Shown: positions 41,379 through 51,131, counted from the stretch's first letter. The stretch is 64,000 nt of DNA from Cutibacterium equinum (GCF_028021195.1 NZ_CP115668.1:806001-870000), one strand, 5' to 3'. The notes: generated by a model not told the origin, from the letters alone. A program made the numbers and translations.

Positions 41379-42143
41379 TCAGTCAGCGATGTACATCTTC
41401 GGTTGTTTGATGGGGTCCGGGAAAGTCCAGCCGCCGCTGAAAGTGGGGGCAGGATCAATCTTCTGAATGCCACGCCTAGCGTCTTTGAGGGTGAACGTCA
41501 TCTTGATGATGCGCTTGATGAGCTTGCCCTGGAGTGCACCAGTAGTGGCCGTGTAGGACACCTCAACCGGCACCGTAAACGTCAACGGGTAGGCCAAATC
41601 ATCCCACGACTTGGGATCAGGGTTAGAGGACCGGGTATTGATCTCCCGGAACTCAATGGTCAGGGAGTACCGGAACCCGACGCGGTAACCGCCAGTCGAG
41701 ACGTTACCGAGCGTCGCGCCACTCGTGGAAGCAACAACGTCCCCTTTGGCATCCGTGATCGTTGGGGCCGGGAGGTAGCTCTCGCCCGAGAAGTTGCGCA
41801 CCTTGTAGGTAAGAATATTCGCATTCTCGGAGAGCACCGCACTACAGGCGGAGCTGGGTGCCCAACCGCCGTTGATGGCGATGCCGCCATTTTGGAGAAA
41901 TCCGAACTGGATGGAGGAGGTGCCGCCATTCTCAGGCCACGCCATCATACGAGCCACCTGATGGGAGGTGGCAGTGCCGCCCGTGACCTCCTCCGGGGTG
42001 ACGCCGCACTCGGCAATTTCTTCGGGGCTGGGGCCAGTGGTGGTTGAAGCTGCAAAAGCGGGTACCGTGCCGACGACCGCAGCGGTGGGCACGGCCCATA
42101 GGGCTCCGGAGGTCAGGGTACGTCGAGAAATCTGGGTGTCCAT
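41379..42143 (-). CDS. Tat-exported protein of unknown function, tandem paralogue (254 aa)
   Basis: The N-terminus MDTQISRRTLTSGALWAVPT has a twin-arginine motif (SRRTLT), followed by an AFAAS cleavage site near residue 31. The mature part begins with ECGVTPEEVTGGTATSHQVA and ends DPAPTFSGGWTFPDP plus a short tail. Two conserved cysteines (ECGV and SSACS) could form a disulfide. It is about 60 percent identical by eye to the next gene, with blocks such as VSYTATTGALQGKLIKRII in common. The start ATG 42143 has AGGAAGG 7 nt upstream; ATG 42149 is too close. Beta-rich composition suggests a surface or secreted domain; function is unknown. Confidence 0.75.
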   Translation of the reverse strand: MDTQISRRTLTSGALWAVPTAAVVGTVPAFAASTTTGPSPEEIAECGVTPEEVTGGTATSHQVARMMAWPENGGTSSIQFGFLQNGGIAINGGWAPSSACSAVLSENANILTYKVRNFSGESYLPAPTITDAKGDVVASTSGATLGNVSTGGYRVGFRYSLTIEFREINTRSSNPDPKSWDDLAYPLTFTVPVEVSYTATTGALQGKLIKRIIKMTFTLKDARRGIQKIDPAPTFSGGWTFPDPIKQPKMYIAD

Positions 42144-42251
42144 GGGCATGCCTTCCTCATGTGGGCATATTGTTCCATTGCCCACATTAACAACCAGCGT
42201 TTCACCTTGCAAATCCGCGAAGAGCTCCCATTCTTCAGGTGCCGAAACCAA

Positions 42252-42337: not shown

Positions 42338-43069
42338 TCAGTCGGGAATGTAGGTCGTGGGGTCACCGGTGGGATCCGGGAACGTCCAGCCGCCGCTGAA
42401 AGTGGGGGCAGGATCGATCTTGTGGACGCCCGCCCTGGAGTTCGGGATGGTGAACGTCATGGTGATGATGCGCTTGACGAGCTTGCCCTTGAGTGCGCCG
42501 GTAGTGGCCGTGTATGAAAGCTCAATCGGCATGTTCACGGTGAGCGGGTAGGACAAGTCCCTCCACCTCTGGTTGATCATCTCCTGGACGTTGCCGAACT
42601 GGATATTGGTGCTGTAACGGACGCCGACCAGGTAGCCGCCAGTCTGGACGTTACCCTGCGTCGCATCGCCGGTGGAGATCAACTTGCCGTTTGCATCGGT
42701 AAGTGTTGTGGGCGGCAGGTATTTCTCGCCAGTGGCGTTATGCACCTTATACGTGAGAATGTTGGACACGTTGGAAAGCGTCGCACCGCAGGCGGAGCTT
42801 GGCCTCCAACCGCTGTTGATGGCGAGATTGCCGGGGATGACGTTTCCGTTGGCGAGGCTGTAGGTGCCCCCGTCCAAGGGCCACGCGAGCATGCGGGCCA
42901 CCTGATGGGAGGTGGCGGTGCCGCCCGTGACCTCCTCCGGGGTGACTCCACAGTCGCCCGCTGGTGGGGTAGAGGCTGCGGACGCAGGTGTTGTGCCGAC
43001 GACCGCAGCGGTAGGCACGGCCCATAAGGCTCCGGAGGTCAGGGTACGTCGGGAAATCTGAGTGTCCAT
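42338..43069 (-). CDS. Tat-exported protein of unknown function, tandem paralogue (243 aa)
   Basis: This is the second copy of the duplicated family. The first 26 residues are identical to its neighbour (MDTQISRRTLTSGALWAVPT then AAVVGT), including the SRRTLT Tat motif; cleavage is likely after ASAAS. Shared mature blocks are DCGVTPEEVTGGTATSHQVA, GWRPSSAC, NILTYKVHN, YTATTGALKGKLVKRII and DPAPTFSGGWTFPDP. Both cysteines are kept. The middle part (residues ~65-90 and 130-160) differs, so the copies have diverged in exposed loops. AAAGG lies before ATG 43069. Function is unknown. Confidence 0.75.
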   Translation of the reverse strand: MDTQISRRTLTSGALWAVPTAAVVGTTPASAASTPPAGDCGVTPEEVTGGTATSHQVARMLAWPLDGGTYSLANGNVIPGNLAINSGWRPSSACGATLSNVSNILTYKVHNATGEKYLPPTTLTDANGKLISTGDATQGNVQTGGYLVGVRYSTNIQFGNVQEMINQRWRDLSYPLTVNMPIELSYTATTGALKGKLVKRIITMTFTIPNSRAGVHKIDPAPTFSGGWTFPDPTGDPTTYIPD

Positions 43070-43228: not shown

Positions 43229-44179
43229 TCAACCGAGGTCACGATGATCCAATACAGCCTTCGCCGTTTCGATGTCGGTCACCAGATCCGTCACCAAATG
43301 ACCCCGAAGGATCGCCGCCAGAGCGGGGACCTTCTCGGCTCCAAATGCACTGACGATGACATGGGTGATTGACGGTATGCGGTCAATCGGTATCGTCATC
43401 AACCCCTGACAGAAGTCCGCGTCGACGTGACGGCCCTGAGCGTCGATGTGATGTCCACAGATATGGCCGACCGCTCCCCGCGACAACAATTCGGCGTGAG
43501 CCCGTTCGGGCATCACATGGTCGAAAATCGGTGCCACCGAATTCACTCCGACGGCACCCACCCCCGTCACCAGAATGTCGGCATGGGAGGCCATCGCGAT
43601 CGTCATCCCAATTGACTTCTCCGCTTTCAATGCTGCTGCCACCTGCGGATTCGACACCAACACTGGCGCAGGCATTACTCGGTACGCACAGCCAAGCCGC
43701 TCCGCCATCTGGCGACACAACTCGGGGGAGTCCAGCAGGAGATTGCCCCGAGCCGTCCCCCCAATCGCCTGGACCACCGTCGCCTCAGGATGACGTTTCG
43801 GAGCCATGGCGCGCACCACTGACGCCACCCCGCGCCCATTCGACAAGGCGATGACTGAATCCGAGTGCATATATGTCGTCACCAGATCAGCCGCCATGCG
43901 CGACACCTCGTCAGCCGCGGAATCGCCATCGGCCATCGCCGCCCGGGCACACGACAACCCGAAGGTTCGAGTCAGGTCGTCCTCCAGCTCGATTGCCCGC
44001 TCCAAGGGGTGCTGCACCGTGAAGGTGATGATTCCGCGACGGCGAGCCTCGTCGAGAAGCCGTGAGACCATCGACCGGGAATAGCCGATCTCCTTGGCTA
44101 TCTCAGCCTGGGACGCCTGTTCCAGCCAGTATCGTCGTGCCACTGTCAGTAGGGTCTGGATGTGTTCGCGGTCAGTCAT
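43229..44179 (-). CDS. SorC/DeoR-type sugar-binding transcriptional regulator
   Basis: This is a 316-residue regulator. The N-terminal helix-turn-helix is SQAEIAKEIGYSRSMVSRLLDEARRRGI near residues 23-50; the rest is the SorC sugar-binding domain (ALSNGRGVASVVRAM near 111, VVQAIGGTARGN near 134, DILVTGVGAVG near 198, GHICGHHIDAQG near 235). Such proteins sense phosphorylated sugars. It is transcribed divergently from the six-gene sugar-acid operon and is the obvious candidate for its regulator. Two TCACA-N2-TGTGA palindromes in the shared region are the likely operator. Confidence 0.9.
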   Translation of the reverse strand: MTDREHIQTLLTVARRYWLEQASQAEIAKEIGYSRSMVSRLLDEARRRGIITFTVQHPLERAIELEDDLTRTFGLSCARAAMADGDSAADEVSRMAADLVTTYMHSDSVIALSNGRGVASVVRAMAPKRHPEATVVQAIGGTARGNLLLDSPELCRQMAERLGCAYRVMPAPVLVSNPQVAAALKAEKSIGMTIAMASHADILVTGVGAVGVNSVAPIFDHVMPERAHAELLSRGAVGHICGHHIDAQGRHVDADFCQGLMTIPIDRIPSITHVIVSAFGAEKVPALAAILRGHLVTDLVTDIETAKAVLDHRDLG

Positions 44180-44186
44180 GGTGTGC

Positions 44187-44198
44187 TCACATGTGTGA
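44187..44198. promoter_or_regulatory. Operator-like palindrome TCACATGTGTGA
   Basis: TCACA-TG-TGTGA lies 8 nt before the SorC-type regulator start (minus strand). It matches the second site at 44272 except for the two central bases. Confidence 0.6.
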
Positions 44199-44271
44199 AA
44201 GTTTGATGCGGATCATCTGGATATAACCGGGATTGTACGCCGTACTCGCTTGGTTCGCACTCGGCATAGAT

Positions 44272-44283
44272 TCACAGATGTGA
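44272..44283. promoter_or_regulatory. Operator-like palindrome TCACAGATGTGA
   Basis: TCACA-GA-TGTGA is the second copy, 79 nt before the first operon gene. A degenerate third copy, TCACACAGTCGTGA, is at 44332-44345. The site also resembles half of a CRP-type site (TGTGA), so a catabolite regulator is an alternative reader. Confidence 0.6.
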
Positions 44284-44361
44284 GTCCCCCTTCTTGCGTC
44301 GGGCTGATCTCAGCGGCTCAATGGGGTGCTGTCACACAGTCGTGAGAAAGGACTCACTCCC

Positions 44362-45354
44362 ATGGCCATCGTCCGTACCATCAACGGCGACGTCGCCCCG
44401 CACACCCTGGGCGTCGTCAACGCCCACGATCACCTCATCCGCGTCGGAGCAGGTGAGGTCTACATCGATCCCGACCACCTGCTCGACGACGTTGACAAGG
44501 CCGCCCAGGAGGCGTCCTGGTTCGTTGAGGCTTCCAAGAAGTGGGCCGACGGCGGCACCATCATCGACATGTGCCCGGCCTCCTCCGGACGTGGAGTCCT
44601 CAAGACCCTCGACGTCGTCAAGAAGGTCCCCGGCCTGCAGGTCGTCCAGGCCACCGGCTTCCACCAGCAGAAGGTCTACCTCGAGTGGCGTCAGAGCTGG
44701 GTCAACCAATACACCATCAACCAGATCGCAGACCTGCTCATCGCCGACATCGTGGAGGGCATCGACCGTTTCGACTACATGGGTCCCATCGTCGAGCGCA
44801 CTGACGTCAAGGCTGGTGTCATCAAGTGGGCCACCGCCTACGGCAAGATCACCGAGTGGGAAAAGAAGTCCGGTAAGGCGGTCGCCATCGCTTCCAAGGA
44901 GACCGGCTGCCCCATCAACACCCACGTCACCGCCGGCACCTGTGGCCCCGAGCAGGCTCGCTTCCTCGTCAACGAGGGAGTGGACCCGTCCAAGATCGCC
45001 ATCGGCCACATGCAGCGCAACTGGGATCCCTGGGTCCACGAGCAGATCTGCAAGCTCGGCTGCTACGTCGAACTCGACGGCACCAACCGGATCAAGTACG
45101 TTCCCGACAACACTCGCGTCAACCTCATCAAGGTGCTCGGCGAGAAGGGTTACGGCAAGCAGATCCTCCTCGGCACCGACTCCGGTAAGGCCTCCTACCA
45201 GAAGGTCTACGGTTCGGTGTCCGGCATCGACTACGACCCGGCGGTCTTCTGCCCTCGACTGGTCGACGACGAGGGAGTCGAGCGAGCCTACGTCGACGAC
45301 CTGCTGATCAACAACGCCGCCACCTTCTTCGCCTTCGAACCGCTGGCAGGGTGA
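44362..45354 (+). CDS. Phosphotriesterase-family metal hydrolase, probable (phospho)sugar lactonase
   Basis: This is a 330-residue amidohydrolase-superfamily TIM barrel of the phosphotriesterase (COG1735) group. All ligands of the binuclear metal site are visible: H22 and H24 (NAHDH), K155 (GVIKWATAYG, expected to be carboxylated), H188 (NTHVTAGT), H216 (IGHMQRN) and D273 (LLGTDSG). Characterised relatives outside the true phosphotriesterases are mostly lactonases, some for phosphorylated sugar lactones. As first gene of an Ula-like operon without UlaG, it could open the lactone ring of a phosphorylated sugar acid; this is inference. The next gene starts 5 nt after its stop. Confidence 0.85.
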   Translation: MAIVRTINGDVAPHTLGVVNAHDHLIRVGAGEVYIDPDHLLDDVDKAAQEASWFVEASKKWADGGTIIDMCPASSGRGVLKTLDVVKKVPGLQVVQATGFHQQKVYLEWRQSWVNQYTINQIADLLIADIVEGIDRFDYMGPIVERTDVKAGVIKWATAYGKITEWEKKSGKAVAIASKETGCPINTHVTAGTCGPEQARFLVNEGVDPSKIAIGHMQRNWDPWVHEQICKLGCYVELDGTNRIKYVPDNTRVNLIKVLGEKGYGKQILLGTDSGKASYQKVYGSVSGIDYDPAVFCPRLVDDEGVERAYVDDLLINNAATFFAFEPLAG

Positions 45355-45359
45355 CGACG

Positions 45360-46013
45360 ATGCCACGACTACAGATCGCCCTCGACACCTACGACCTGCC
45401 CTCCGCGCTGGCCCCTCTCGCCGCTGCCGCCGACGAGATCGACGTCATCGAGTGTGGCACCATCCTCATCCTGGCCGAGGGAATGGATGCGGTACGAGCC
45501 ATGCGCGCCGCCCATCCCGACAAGCAGATTCTCGCCGACGTCCGAATTGCCGAGGCCGGTTCCAAGATCGCCCGCATGTGCTTCGAGGCCGGAGCGAACC
45601 TCGTCTCCTGCGTCGCCGGGGCATCGCTGGCCACCATCAACCAGGTCTGCCAGGTTGCCGCCGAGTTCGGCGGTGAGGTGCAGGTCGAACTCGCTGACGA
45701 GTGGTACGACGCCGAGCGCGCCCGACAATGGCGCGACTTGGGTGTTCAACACGTCATCGTCAAGCGGTCCCGCGACCGGGAGGCCGCCGGTGACCTGTCC
45801 TGGAAACCCGAGGACATCGGCCGCGTCGACGAACTCGCCGAGATGGGATTCACCGTCACCGTCACCGGGGGAATCACCCCCGCCGACCTGCCCGTCTTCG
45901 CCGGACACCCGGTCGGCATCGTCATCGCGGGACGATCCATCGTCGCCGCAGACGATCCCCGGGAGGCTGCCCACACCCTGCGCTGCGCCATGAATGAGGT
46001 GTGGCCGCGATGA
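45360..46013 (+). CDS. 3-keto-L-gulonate-6-phosphate decarboxylase-like protein (OMPDC superfamily)
   Basis: This is a 217-residue TIM barrel aligned along its length with UlaD/SgbH. D9 (ALD), E31 (ECGTI), RMCFEAGAN, VQVEL, KRSRD and VTVTGGI are in place. The superfamily catalytic motif DxKxxD is DVRIAE here (D60, R62, E65), so the lysine that stabilises the enediolate in known decarboxylases is arginine and the second aspartate is glutamate; the histidine before RSRD is lysine. The reaction may still be a decarboxylation giving a pentulose-5-phosphate, but the substrate or chemistry may differ. ATG 45360 has AGGG 8 nt upstream; GTG 45351 is the alternative. Confidence 0.85.
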   Translation: MPRLQIALDTYDLPSALAPLAAAADEIDVIECGTILILAEGMDAVRAMRAAHPDKQILADVRIAEAGSKIARMCFEAGANLVSCVAGASLATINQVCQVAAEFGGEVQVELADEWYDAERARQWRDLGVQHVIVKRSRDREAAGDLSWKPEDIGRVDELAEMGFTVTVTGGITPADLPVFAGHPVGIVIAGRSIVAADDPREAAHTLRCAMNEVWPR

Positions 46014-46897
46014 GCGATCCGCTGTCCGATGGGGTGACCCTCGGCATCTACGAGAAAGCCCTGGTCGGCAACTCGTTGACGACCAGCGAGGATTGGCGAC
46101 GATTCCTGGCGCAAGTGCCCGAGGCAGGGTTCAGTTTCGTCGACCTGTCCGTTGACGAGACCGAGGAAAGGACCGCACGGCTGGGATGGGACCAGAACCG
46201 TCGACGCATGGTGCGCCACTGCGCCGACGAGGTCGGGACCATGATCGGGGGGATCTGCCTGTCGGTACACCGGCGCATCGGCCCCGGCAGCGCTGACCCC
46301 GCCGTACGCCAAAAGGCCCGTCAGGTCATGGCCGACGGACTGCAACTGTGCCACGACCTCGGCGCCCCGGCGCTTCAGGTGGCTGGCTACTACTGCTACT
46401 ACGAGCCGATGAACGATCATGCCGAGCAGTGGTACGCCGACCTCCTCCTCGACGCGATTCCGATGGCCGCCCGGTTGGGGGTCGTCATGGGAATCGAGAA
46501 CGTTGACGGCACCGACGTCACCTCGATCCGCAAGGCCATGGAGTTCGTCCGCCTGGCCGACTCTCCCTACCTCCAGGTCTACCCGGACCTGGGCAACATC
46601 GCCGAGCAACAACTCGACGCCACGACCGAGCTCAAGGCCGGCCGCGGCCACATGGTCGCCATGCACGTCAAGGACGTCAGGCCAGGAGAGCCCCGTCGGG
46701 TACCGATGGGGGAGGGGACCGTCAACTGGGACGAGTCCTTCGCCATCCTTGCCGAGCAGGGCTGGCGGGGCCGCATGATGATCGAAATGTGGAATGACGA
46801 CGCTCCCGATTCCAACGAACGCAGCGCGTCAGCCCGAGAGTTCATCGAACAGCGTCTCCACGGCGCTGGAATACCGGTTCGTCGCACTGCGGTCTGA
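46010..46897 (+). CDS. L-ribulose-5-phosphate 3-epimerase (UlaE/SgbU-like)
   Basis: This is a 295-residue xylose isomerase-like TIM barrel. It shows GIYEKAL at residues 10-16, FSFVDLSVDETEERTARLGW near 45, MGIENVDGTD near 161, YPDLGNIAEQ near 193, MHVKDVRPGE near 219 and MMIEMWND near 260, all typical of UlaE, which converts L-xylulose-5-P to L-ribulose-5-P. The metal ligands (E, D, H, E) are all accounted for in these motifs. The start ATG overlaps the preceding stop (ATGA). Confidence 0.9.
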   Translation: MSDPLSDGVTLGIYEKALVGNSLTTSEDWRRFLAQVPEAGFSFVDLSVDETEERTARLGWDQNRRRMVRHCADEVGTMIGGICLSVHRRIGPGSADPAVRQKARQVMADGLQLCHDLGAPALQVAGYYCYYEPMNDHAEQWYADLLLDAIPMAARLGVVMGIENVDGTDVTSIRKAMEFVRLADSPYLQVYPDLGNIAEQQLDATTELKAGRGHMVAMHVKDVRPGEPRRVPMGEGTVNWDESFAILAEQGWRGRMMIEMWNDDAPDSNERSASAREFIEQRLHGAGIPVRRTAV

Positions 46898-46965
46898 CCC
46901 CGAGTCGACCTCGCTACCCAAGTACCCCCATAATTTCCATTCCATTGTTCAAAGGAGAACCTTCC

Positions 46966-47634
46966 ATGCTCGAAGAGCTCAAGGCAGACGTCTGCCGGGG
47001 CAACCTCGAACTGCCGCGTCACGGACTGGTGACGTGGACGTCGGGAAACCTGTCCGCCCGAGACCCGGAAACCGGACTGGTCGTCATCAAGCCATCCGGA
47101 ATGCTCTACGACACCATGAGCCCCGATGACATGGTTGTCGTCGACCTTGATGGTCGCGTCGTCGAGGGCCATCGCGGGCCGTCCTCGGACACCGCATCCC
47201 ACCTCTACGTGTATCGTCGCCGCGAGGACATCCGCAGCATCATCCACACCCATTCCACCTTCGCAACGGCATGGGCCGCGACCGGTCAGGACATCCCCTG
47301 TGCCCTGACGGCCGTCGCCGACGAGTTCGGTGGCCCGATTCCCTGTGGCGACTACGCCCAGATCGGCACCGAACAGATCGGTGAGCAGATCATGAGGTTC
47401 ATCGACGAGTGCCCGGCCGTGCTACTCAAGAAGCACGGCGTGTTCACCGTGGGAACCTCCATCGAGAAGGCCGTCAAGGCCGCGGTCATGGTCGAGGACG
47501 TCGCGCGGACCCTCACCTACGCCACCATGATTGGTCAGATCTCCCCGCTTCCCCAGTCCGAGATCGACTCCAACCACGATCGGTACACCAACCGCTACGG
47601 CACCGCAGCAGCATCCCAGGGAGTGACGGCATGA
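46966..47634 (+). CDS. L-ribulose-5-phosphate 4-epimerase (AraD/UlaF-like, class II aldolase family)
   Basis: This is a 222-residue class II aldolase/adducin-family enzyme. Motifs: TWTSGNLSARD near residue 24, IKPSGMLYD near 44, SSDTASHLYVYRRR near 74, the zinc ligands HTHS near 94 and LKKHGVF near 149. It would convert L-ribulose-5-P to D-xylulose-5-P, the exit to the pentose phosphate pathway. Fuculose-phosphate aldolase cannot be fully excluded, but the epimerase partner next door favours AraD/UlaF. AAAGGAGA lies before ATG 46966. Confidence 0.88.
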   Translation: MLEELKADVCRGNLELPRHGLVTWTSGNLSARDPETGLVVIKPSGMLYDTMSPDDMVVVDLDGRVVEGHRGPSSDTASHLYVYRRREDIRSIIHTHSTFATAWAATGQDIPCALTAVADEFGGPIPCGDYAQIGTEQIGEQIMRFIDECPAVLLKKHGVFTVGTSIEKAVKAAVMVEDVARTLTYATMIGQISPLPQSEIDSNHDRYTNRYGTAAASQGVTA

Positions 47635-48581
47635 CCTACGACATTTCGACCATCGGTGAAGGACAGATCCGACTCACCTGCTACAAGGGGGAACGTCTGG
47701 TCAATGCACAGCAGCTACGCGCCACGGCAGCATGTTCCGAGGCCAACGTCGCCGGCTTGCTGTCCCAGCTGGGGCGTGACACCTGCTGGACCTCCGTCAT
47801 GCCCGAGGGAGACCTGACCGACCGCGTTGTCAACGAGTTCCGCAGCGTCGGTGTCGACGTCTCCCACATCTGCATGAAGCCCGAGGGGCGAGTCGCACTG
47901 TACTTCATGGAACCCGGCGAATACCCCATGCCCGCCCGGGTGCTCTACGACCGTGAGCACACCCCCTTCCGCGACGTCACCATTGACGATCTCGACTGGG
48001 AAGCCATGCTCGACACCAAGCTCGTCTTCGTGACCGGCATCACCGCCGCCCTCACCGATAACACCGCGGCAGTGGTGCGTCATTTCGTCGACGAGGCCGA
48101 TCGCCGCGGCATCGCCGTCGCCCTCGACGTCAACTACCGGTCCCTGTTGTGGGCACCGGAACGAGCCCGCGAAGTCCTCGAACCCATCGCTCGGATCGCC
48201 AGCATCGTCTTCTGTTCAGTGCGTGATGGCCAGGCCGTCTTCGGGATCGAATCGACGGGCGAGCAGGCATGTCACGAGCTGCGCGACCTTTTCGGGGCAC
48301 CCACCGTCGTGTCCACCGACCAGATCAACGGTGTGTACCTGTCCGACGCCGAGCACGGCGACCACACCTTCGCAGTGACCCAGGTCCCCGTCGTCGACCG
48401 CCCCGGTGCCGGTGACTCCTTCGTCGCCGGAACCCTGCACGGCTACCTCGCAGGTGACGTCATTCAGGGAATCCACTACGGGCAGCGCACCTCAGCCTAT
48501 GCCCTGACCCACTACGGCGACCTGACCCGCGTGAGCCCCAACGAGCTCAACATTCCTTCCAACACAGACATTCTGCGCTGA
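47631..48581 (+). CDS. PfkB-family carbohydrate kinase (KdgK-like)
   Basis: This is a 316-residue ribokinase-fold sugar kinase. It has the N-terminal substrate part (ACSEANVAGLLSQLG near residue 34), the DVNYRSLLW block near 166 that is typical of 2-keto-3-deoxygluconate kinases, and the PfkB signature DRPGAGDSFVAG near 260 with the catalytic Asp. In an operon with an MFS permease rather than a PTS, it is the only obvious way to phosphorylate the incoming sugar acid or lactone. ATG 47631 overlaps the preceding stop (ATGA), with GGGAG 8 nt upstream. Confidence 0.9.
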   Translation: MTYDISTIGEGQIRLTCYKGERLVNAQQLRATAACSEANVAGLLSQLGRDTCWTSVMPEGDLTDRVVNEFRSVGVDVSHICMKPEGRVALYFMEPGEYPMPARVLYDREHTPFRDVTIDDLDWEAMLDTKLVFVTGITAALTDNTAAVVRHFVDEADRRGIAVALDVNYRSLLWAPERAREVLEPIARIASIVFCSVRDGQAVFGIESTGEQACHELRDLFGAPTVVSTDQINGVYLSDAEHGDHTFAVTQVPVVDRPGAGDSFVAGTLHGYLAGDVIQGIHYGQRTSAYALTHYGDLTRVSPNELNIPSNTDILR

Positions 48582-48615
48582 TCGTGATCGCGGCGCAGAC
48601 AGGAGACACACTCAC

Positions 48616-49974
48616 ATGTCCACATCGACTACTGCCAGGCAATCAGCCCTGGACCTCATTGACTCGCGTCCGCTGACGCGCAATCAGAAGAACCTCGTCG
48701 CCCTCGCCATCGTCGGCAACATCGCCGAGTTCTTCGACATCTTCCTCATCGGCTTCGTCGTTTCCGTCCTCACCAAACCCTGGCACCTCACCGGCTCCGA
48801 AGCTGGCATCATTCTCGCCTGCTCAGGCCTGGGCACCGTCATCGGCGCCATCATGTGGGGCCGCCTGGCCGACAAGATCGGACGCCGGTCCTCCTTCTTC
48901 TGGTGCGTCCTCATGTTCGTGGTATTCACCGTCGTGTCGGTGTTCACCCCCGACCGAGGATGGATCATGCTCGCCGTGTTGCGTATCGGGGTGGGCATTG
49001 GTGTCGGAGGGCTCAACATCACCTCGATTCCCTACGTCCAGGAATTCGTGCCCGCCAAACAGCGGGGCCTCCTGGCTGGCCTGGCCTCGGTGTTCATTCC
49101 GCTTGGTCTGTTCCTGGGATCCTTGGCCCAGCAGGTCCTCGGTGACAATTGGCGCGGCCTCATCGCGCTGGGAGCTTTGCCTGTCTTCCTGCTGCTGTGG
49201 CTGAAGTTCGTGCCGGAGTCGCCGCGTTTCCTGCAAAGTCATGGTCGAGAAGAGGAAGCCCGCGAGGCGCTGGCATGGGCCCTCGAGATGCCCGCCGACC
49301 AGATCGGCGACCTTCCCGTCGTCGAGCATGTCGAGCACGCCTCCTACTCGCTCATCTTCGGTAAGTACCGCAAGAGCCTCCTCATCGTCACCCTGGGCTC
49401 CTTCTGCTTCATTCTCGGTTCCTTCACCATCCAGTCGTGGGGCCAGACCCTGCTCAAGACCGGATTCGACAAGTCTGACTCCCAGGTCGGAACCCTGTTC
49501 ATGTTCGTCTCCTTGGCCGACCTGCTCGGACGTTTGCTGTCCGCATGGCTTGCTGACCGGATTGGCCGCCGGGTGACCATGCTGGTCTTTGGTGTCGTCG
49601 GCGCCGTCGGTTCCCTCATCATCGCTTTGTCGGCTCAGCAGGGTTGGGGATGGCAGGCCTTCTTCATCGGCGTCCTCATTGCCATGGCCTTCGGTGACGG
49701 TGCCTTCGGCATCCTCAACGCCTTCGGCTCCGAGCAGTTCCCCAACGAGGCTCGTTCCACCGGTCTGGGACTCGGCTATGGCATCGGCGCCACCGCCAAG
49801 GTCATCGGCCCGGCTCTCATGGGTCTCATGGTCGGTGGCACTGCCGTCAAGCAGAACGTCACCCTCGACGCCGTCTTCCCCGCCTTCATCCTGTTCTCAG
49901 TGTTGCTGGTCGTGGGTGGTGTGATCTACATGTTCGCCCGTGAAACCCGCGGAACATCACTCGACGAGATCTGA
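48616..49974 (+). CDS. MFS transporter, probable sugar acid:H+ symporter
   Basis: This 452-residue permease has 12 predicted membrane helices. Motif A appears as [10 protein letters not shown] near residue 85 and again as [12 protein letters not shown] near 310; [21 protein letters not shown] is near 125, and [17 protein letters not shown] near 198 follows the sugar porter/metabolite:H+ symporter pattern. AGGAGA lies about 10 nt before the ATG. It closes the operon and presumably imports the unphosphorylated substrate. Confidence 0.9.
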
Positions 49975-49991
49975 TCGTCGCGTCGTCGATT

Positions 49992-50024
49992 CGTGGCCCC
50001 GGTAGTACTACCGGGGCCACGTTT
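49992..50024 (+). terminator. Terminator of the sugar-acid operon
   Basis: CGTGGCCCCGGTAG (49992-50005) and CTACCGGGGCCACG (50008-50021) form a perfect stem closed by TA, then TTTG. It lies 17 nt after the permease stop. Confidence 0.8.
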
Positions 50025-50158
50025 GCGTCCGCCCGAAGACGGGTGCTTCAGAGTCGGGAAGTCCGCTTGGGGCGTGCACAAATGGCCATACCATCTGGCA
50101 TGTTGTTCAGATGCGCGGCCCAGGTGCGCAGTGCGGGGAATCACGTCCCAGGGCACCC

Positions 50159-50171: not shown

Positions 50172-51131
50172 ATGAGCACTTCTGACGTCACTCGCCGCGC
50201 CTCCAAGATCTCCGTCGTCGGGGCCGGTTCGGTTGGTTCCTCCCTGGCCTACGCCTGCCTCATCCGCGGATCGGCCGACCTTGTTGCCCTTTACGACATC
50301 GCCAAGGACAAGGTTGAGGCCGAGGTGGCAGACCTCGCCCACGGCACCCAGTTCACCCCCGCCTCGGTGATGGGGGGTGCAGATGTCCACGACACCGCCA
50401 ATTCGGACGTCGTGTTCATCACTGCTGGAGCTCGCCAGAAGCCGGGCCAGACCCGTCTGGACCTCGCCGGGATCAACGCCAACATCCTGCGCTCCCTCAT
50501 GCCGCAGTTGGTCGAGCAGTCCCCGAATGCCCTGTTCGTGCTCGTCACCAACCCCTGCGACGTGCTGACCGTCGTCGCCCAGCAGGCCACTGGGCTGCCG
50601 GCGAATCGCGTTTTCTCCACCGGCACGATGCTGGACACCTCGCGCCTGCGTTGGCTCATCCGACAGTGGGCCAACGTCGAACAGCGTCACGTCCACGCCA
50701 CCATCGTCGGTGAGCACGGCGACTCGGAGTTCCCGCTGTGGTCGAGCGCCAACATCTCGGGTGTGCCGATCCGCGAGTGGACCGTCGGCGGTGAGCACGT
50801 CTTCACCGATGAGGTGCTGGCTGACCTGGCCCACGAGGCCGCCTTCGCTGCCTACAAGATCATCGAGGGCAAGGGGGCGACGAACTACGCCATCGGTCTG
50901 ACGGGGGCACGTCTGGCCGAGTCGTTGCTGCGACCGGGACGTTCCGTGCTGCCGCTGTCCAGCGTCATCGAGGACGTCCACGGTGTGTCCGGTGTGGCTT
51001 TGTCGATGCCTTGCATCGTCTCGCGTGACGGCATCGAGGGGGTCGTTCCCGTCGCCATGAGCGCGGAGGAGGTTGCCTCCCTCAAGGCATCTGCTGACCG
51101 CTTGCGAGACACTTTGTCATCCATCTCCTGA
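50172..51131 (+). CDS. ldh: L-lactate dehydrogenase
   Basis: This enzyme interconverts pyruvate and L-lactate with NAD(H). It has 319 residues: [14 protein letters not shown] near residue 14 (Rossmann), [14 protein letters not shown] near 90 (the Q-x-x-x-x-R substrate loop that marks lactate rather than malate specificity), VTNPCDV near 130, and the catalytic histidine in [13 protein letters not shown] near 180. The C-terminal end is regular for the family. It is monocistronic; malic enzyme follows with its own -10 box. Confidence 0.94.

Follow-up and report, generated by a model that had tools for sequence, protein, structure and literature searches.

A six-gene operon of Cutibacterium equinum, found in the 64-kb stretch of DNA analyzed here (the window; positions are counted from its first letter), very probably serves the catabolism of ascorbate. 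The reading builds on gene content, conservation and residue signatures, on the interchange of two unrelated lactonases among relatives, and on the absence of the ascorbate PTS from related loci. The complete PTS-free mechanism, with a kinase acting before the lactonase, is itself probable; its substrate, order of steps, mode of transport and all catalytic activities are predicted from sequence. An MFS permease would import L-ascorbate unmodified, a PfkB kinase would phosphorylate it on O6 at the expense of ATP, and a phosphotriesterase (PTE)-family protein would open the lactone of L-ascorbate 6-phosphate, yielding 3-keto-L-gulonate 6-phosphate. The latter would be decarboxylated to L-xylulose 5-phosphate by a UlaD-like enzyme, and UlaE and UlaF/AraD would convert this product to L-ribulose 5-phosphate and then to D-xylulose 5-phosphate, which enters central metabolism. 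A SorC-type regulator would control the operon from paired operators.

Organization of the locus

The operon is made up of six packed plus-strand genes (44362-49974), and the SorC-type regulator gene is divergently oriented (Table 1). All the genes named in an earlier note on this DNA are present, the regulator lying just left of the point at which the operon had been taken to start. The tight packing reported there is also found: three junctions are 4-bp overlaps, the only gaps being of 68 and 34 bp. The closing terminator corresponds to a strong hairpin (region 49970-50040, MFE -37.4 kcal/mol, z -4.3), but the T-run which follows is short (TTTG), and the hairpin is missing from the output of the automatic scan. 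The operon encodes no dehydrogenase, as had been noted; the first gene 3' of the hairpin, and thus beyond it, is an L-lactate dehydrogenase gene (50172-51131, TIGR01771 above cut-off). At the DNA level the operon is about 81% identical to the C. namnetense, C. avidum and C. modestum operons. The SSD and HTH motifs of the UlaF/AraD-type epimerase are kept in 64 of 64 aligned rows. Beside the regulator reside two tandem paralogues (41385-42164 and 42341-43069, both on the minus strand), 64% identical and featuring twin-arginine-like signal sequences.

Table 1. Features of the C. equinum locus (positions in the window)
Feature	Position	Strand	Evidence
SorC/DeoR-type sugar-binding transcriptional regulator	43229..44179	-	PF04198 7.8e-54
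Operator-like site 1 TTCACACATGTGA, likely regulator binding site	44187..44199	-	exact match to TTCACANATGTGA
Operator-like site 2 TTCACAGATGTGA, likely regulator binding site	44271..44283	+	exact match to TTCACANATGTGA
PTE-family binuclear metal hydrolase, predicted L-ascorbate-6-phosphate lactonase	44362..45354	+	PF02126 6e-44
KGPDC-like / UlaD-like decarboxylase	45351..46013	+	OMPdecase 1e-29; NF009832 236 bits (cut-off 250)
UlaE-type L-xylulose/L-ribulose-5-phosphate 3-epimerase	46010..46897	+	AP_endonuc_2 2e-42; NF009688 (PRK13209) 367 bits (cut-off 317)
UlaF/AraD-type L-ribulose-5-phosphate 4-epimerase	46966..47634	+	Aldolase_II 1e-55; NF005123 343 bits (cut-off 251)
PfkB kinase, 2-keto-3-deoxygluconate-kinase type, predicted L-ascorbate 6-kinase	47631..48581	+	PF00294 7.8e-23
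MFS permease, predicted ascorbate uptake	48616..49974	+	PF07690 (MFS_1) 8.8e-55
Terminator-like hairpin, 13-bp stem, 4-nt loop, then TTT	49992..50021	+	

The sequence TTCACANATGTGA occurs in two exact copies, 84 bp apart, in the gap between the regulator and PTE genes, and has no other exact match in the 64 kb. The pair is found also in other Cutibacterium and in Acidipropionibacterium, at a spacing of about 83 bp, and in most relatives the SorC-type regulator stays divergent beside the gene set. The arrangement suggests DNA looping by the regulator. Neither these paired sites nor the altered active site of the decarboxylase described below were mentioned in the earlier note.

Two alternative lactonases

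Relatives were searched for in 84,980 species genomes by a scan with a decarboxylase alignment; 131 were retrieved, and the best 80 kept. Among the 81 loci compared (best 80 of 131 relatives), PTE is present in 65, UlaG in 13 and neither in three, all of which are short or cut contigs; none of these 81 loci has both. In the PTE-less loci a protein of about 351 aa, 61-76% identical to E. coli UlaG, is the UlaG lactonase. Its metal-motif positions are conserved, and four such proteins tested all exceed the NF008688 equivalog cut-off (586-620 bits vs. 306). The 13 UlaG loci retain the same decarboxylase type and the PfkB kinase, and at least three changes between PTE and UlaG are forced on the kinase tree when lactonase types are marked. 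The earlier proposal that the PTE-fold protein replaces UlaG is thus strongly supported, UlaG occupying in these 13 loci the place of the absent PTE. It is not the first of its kind, since in mycoplasmas with an ascorbate PTS a PTE-family gene had already been proposed as the missing UlaG (PMC4866288). The mutual exclusion of PTE and UlaG, absolute among the 81 loci, is broken by one genome (G570), in which both lactonases reside in two neighbouring units of one cluster. In this cluster (L182:3942-11910) PTE is associated with decarboxylase, UlaE and UlaF, UlaG with kinase and MFS permease; the cluster is possibly an intermediate of replacement.

UlaG together with UlaD-, UlaE- and UlaF-type enzymes carries out ascorbate-6-phosphate breakdown (PMC3219644). 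As UlaG interchanges with PTE, and the UlaG/UlaD/UlaE/UlaF route is known, L-ascorbate is the best reading of the substrate common to these loci. The PTE protein would then be another kind of lactonase for L-ascorbate 6-phosphate, beside UlaG.

The solved structures nearest to the PTE protein are 3msr/3ovg (MS53_0025), followed by 3pnz (Lmo2620), with which it shares fold, family, metal ligands and phosphate-ligand positions. Residues K217, K244, Y245, R275 and Y278 of MS53_0025, which we take to be the phosphate ligands, agree with what the aligned chain carries at these places. The corresponding positions read R/K/Y/K/Y in 64 of 64 full-length PTE members aligned, the changes being conservative, and R, K, Y, R, Y in Lmo2620; in the PTE-like lactonase GkaP (3f4c), none of these residues is found at the positions that aligned. 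The operon protein differs from MS53_0025 in having Arg at K217 and Lys at R275, and scores 239.6 bits against the phospho-furanose lactonase model NF045706, below the cut-off of 630. Relative to phospho-furanose lactonases, its predicted substrate is one carbon longer. The conserved set of phosphate ligands favours a phosphorylated lactone, and hence a kinase acting before the lactonase.

Absence of the ascorbate PTS

UlaA, UlaB and UlaC were found in none of the 81 loci (best 80 of 131 relatives), a result which strongly supports the view, put forward in the earlier note, that MFS permease and kinase replace the PTS. In the host genome, a single 2.51-Mb contig, neither a UlaA match, nor an EIIC-GAT permease above cut-off, nor UlaG (best score 19.9 bits vs. 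a cut-off of 306) was detected. The EIIC-GAT and UlaG family searches were positive in control genomes. UlaA was searched for with one protein and no positive control alongside, but distant homologues did come up in other Propionibacteriaceae genomes. YiaK reductase, YiaMNO transporter and LyxK were represented in the 81 loci only by scattered LyxK- or YiaK-like matches of low identity (23-29%) outside the core.

PTS-type clusters were encountered elsewhere. G546, of the Propionibacteriaceae, has UlaG and an ascorbate-type PTS, arranged as UlaC-UlaA-(UlaB-like)-UlaG (L183:5454-8684), and no part of the kinase route; no UlaD-type gene was found in this genome at the threshold used. Two PTS-type UlaG clusters of another class (L106:3364-9884 and L107:3556-9980) include UlaE and UlaF, with no UlaD nearby; in L106 an FG-GAP-like 351-aa protein is encoded between UlaB and UlaG.

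Kinase and permease

The PfkB kinase scores 81.7 bits against PF00294 (cut-off 25.8) and carries the GAGD catalytic motif. It is of the 2-keto-3-deoxygluconate (KDG) kinase type, yet falls under all the curated cut-offs for these enzymes (NF041332, 212 of 440 bits; NF040938, 102 of 400; NF052444, 51 of 400). PfkB fold, catalytic Asp (the Asp251 equivalent, invariant in the alignment) and sugar-acid contact positions are those of KDG kinases (1v19, 2afb), from which the operon kinase differs because its GGAE sugar-binding motif reads ACSE or AGSE, and because it sits in an ascorbate-type gene set. Tyr103, Arg105 and Arg167 of the T. thermophilus KDG kinase, presumably the carboxylate-binding residues of these enzymes, are conserved in position, Tyr103 being replaced by Phe in four Chloroflexota members.

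The kinase sequence is compatible with either ascorbate or 3-keto-L-gulonate, and the kept Tyr/Arg/Arg positions mean that the enzyme might prefer the open keto-acid. They are the chief reason for retaining a reversed order of steps, in which PTE or UlaG would open unphosphorylated L-ascorbate and the kinase would then phosphorylate 3-keto-L-gulonate. KDG kinases, the closest relatives, act on keto-acids, and in the E. coli yia-sgb route LyxK presumably phosphorylates 3-keto-L-gulonate. The reversed order is nonetheless unlikely, as UlaG, which alternates with PTE, acts on the phosphorylated lactone, and the phosphate ligands conserved in PTE would be pointless on an unphosphorylated one. Phosphorylation ahead of lactone opening, the preferred order, calls for an L-ascorbate 6-kinase, which according to the earlier note would be new. 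Neither an 'ascorbate kinase' nor a PTS-free kinase route was found in the literature searched, this being weak evidence as only open-access papers were covered.

The best NCBIfam relative of the MFS permease is TIGR00895 (aromatic acid/H+ symport; 194 bits, cut-off 419). The Chloroflexota loci encode, instead of the MFS permease, a carbohydrate ABC transporter, along with UlaG and a PfkB kinase; a non-phosphorylating importer accompanied by a kinase is what would be expected if the substrate enters unphosphorylated. In G012 (L167:7147-9604) a 53% identical kinase paralogue, the substrate of which may differ, is divergent from a SorC regulator; it has a different context and no decarboxylase, and was not counted as a pathway member.

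The decarboxylase has an Arg/Glu active site

With about 45% identity to E. coli UlaD, the decarboxylase scores 235.9 bits against NF009832, just below the cut-off of 250. The structure nearest to the predicted model is 1kv8 (TM 0.92). The published KGPDC signature includes D11, E33, D62, K64, D67, E112, H136, R139, T169 and R192, of which Lys64 and Asp67 are common to KGPDC, HPS and OMPDC (PMC5980557). In 82 of 82 decarboxylase sequences these two residues, near-universal in the superfamily, are replaced by Arg and Glu, which is a new observation. The KGPDC-specific E112, T169 and R192 are invariant, R139 nearly so (kept in 81-82 of 82), and position 136 is occupied by Lys in 56 sequences and by His in 26. 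The contig scan for the decarboxylase used a peptide pattern with R and E. An ascertainment artefact was however rejected, because a pattern-free similarity search of 199 Propionibacteriaceae genomes again gave R/E in all readable ascorbate-type matches, and K/D in distant HPS-like matches. An Acetobacteraceae MAG carrying the Arg64 form also has, beside UlaE and UlaF, a partial copy of another UlaD that is closer to the E. coli protein (L051:35-451).

The invariant Lys64Arg and Asp67Glu changes could alternatively reflect a different lactone or sugar acid (L-gulonolactone, D-isoascorbate, an ascorbate derivative) processed to 3-keto-L-gulonate 6-phosphate or an isomer, and the score of PTE under the curated phospho-furanose lactonase cut-off would fit as well. 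This is quite unlikely: the operon has no dehydrogenase, PTE is interchangeable with an ascorbate-6-phosphate lactonase, and E112, R139, T169 and R192 are kept. Moreover, UlaE and UlaF need an L-threo pentulose 5-phosphate. D-isoascorbate, named for growth tests in the earlier note, was rejected as unlikely on this account, as it would yield D-ribulose 5-phosphate, while epimerases and UlaG fit L-xylulose 5-phosphate. L-ascorbate is the more likely substrate.

Distribution of the gene set

The same arrangement was found in five more genomes labelled Cutibacterium and in one genome of another family (G196). The best 80 of 131 relatives include Cutibacterium, Propionibacterium, Acidipropionibacterium, Actinomyces, Bifidobacterium, Corynebacterium, Arcanobacterium and others; further carriers in the same set are Alphaproteobacteria (Pleomorphomonas, Acetobacteraceae MAGs) and Chloroflexota. 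The decarboxylase-kinase-permease-lactonase core is most constant, UlaE or UlaF being at times located elsewhere in the cluster or unseen locally. One Chloroflexota locus (L096:10193-12008) has an additional gene of the URO-D/MtaA-like methyltransferase family, together with one for a HAD phosphatase, between UlaF and kinase.

The 199 Propionibacteriaceae genomes were taken irrespective of the trait. The decarboxylase is found in 20, the kinase in 19, PTE in 18 and all three in 17 (Fisher p about 1e-22, a value which treats related genomes as independent, which they are not). One genome of the 199, G540 (Micropruina), has decarboxylase and kinase and no PTE, but UlaG. This co-occurrence, and the gene order kept in other families, rule out a chance grouping. 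General scavenging of sugar acids or pentuloses unconnected with ascorbate, in which the lactonase would clear a by-product, would be allowed by annotations which are all homology-based, but is very improbable given the tight co-occurrence of the marker genes and a gene set conserved over three phyla with a lactonase in every untruncated locus.

Discussion

The Cutibacterium-type loci share with the Ula system (E. coli K-12 NC_000913, ulaABCDEF, ulaG) UlaD-, UlaE- and UlaF-type enzymes and a predicted phospho-lactone hydrolysis, some relatives retaining even UlaG. They differ because they lack the PTS, encode a kinase and an MFS or ABC importer instead, mostly carry a PTE-fold lactonase, have an Arg64/Glu67 decarboxylase, and are flanked by a SorC regulator rather than UlaR. 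Non-PTS import, a separate kinase, a decarboxylase and two epimerases are found also in the E. coli yia-sgb system for 2,3-diketo-L-gulonate; the operon described here, in contrast, has neither YiaK reductase nor TRAP transporter, its kinase is PfkB and not FGGY (LyxK), and it includes a lactonase. In the mycoplasma ascorbate PTS clusters (MHP_7448_0377) a PTE-family gene is likewise proposed as ascorbate-6-phosphate lactonase, from context only, but these clusters use a PTS (PMC4866288). The PTS-free kinase route would be a variant on the Ula pathway not met in the literature searched, whereas the idea of PTE standing in for UlaG had been put forward before. On balance we favour, with some reserve, the joint reading of a dedicated L-ascorbate 6-kinase, a widespread PTS-independent route, an alternation of PTE and metallo-beta-lactamase lactonases, and a decarboxylase without Lys/Asp.

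Lactonase, decarboxylase and kinase all score below curated cut-offs, so that automatic annotation likely misses ascorbate use. The replacement of Lys64/Asp67 by Arg/Glu poses a sharp mechanistic question. The lactonase swap is a clean natural case of one enzyme fold repeatedly replaced by another at the same step, and suggests a function for an unassigned branch of the PTE family. If correct, the pathway predicts a kinase activity which we did not find described, and would provide a route of vitamin C breakdown to bacteria that do not have the known ascorbate PTS, among them Actinomycetota of the skin, the mouth and the bee gut (Cutibacterium, Actinomyces, Bifidobacterium).
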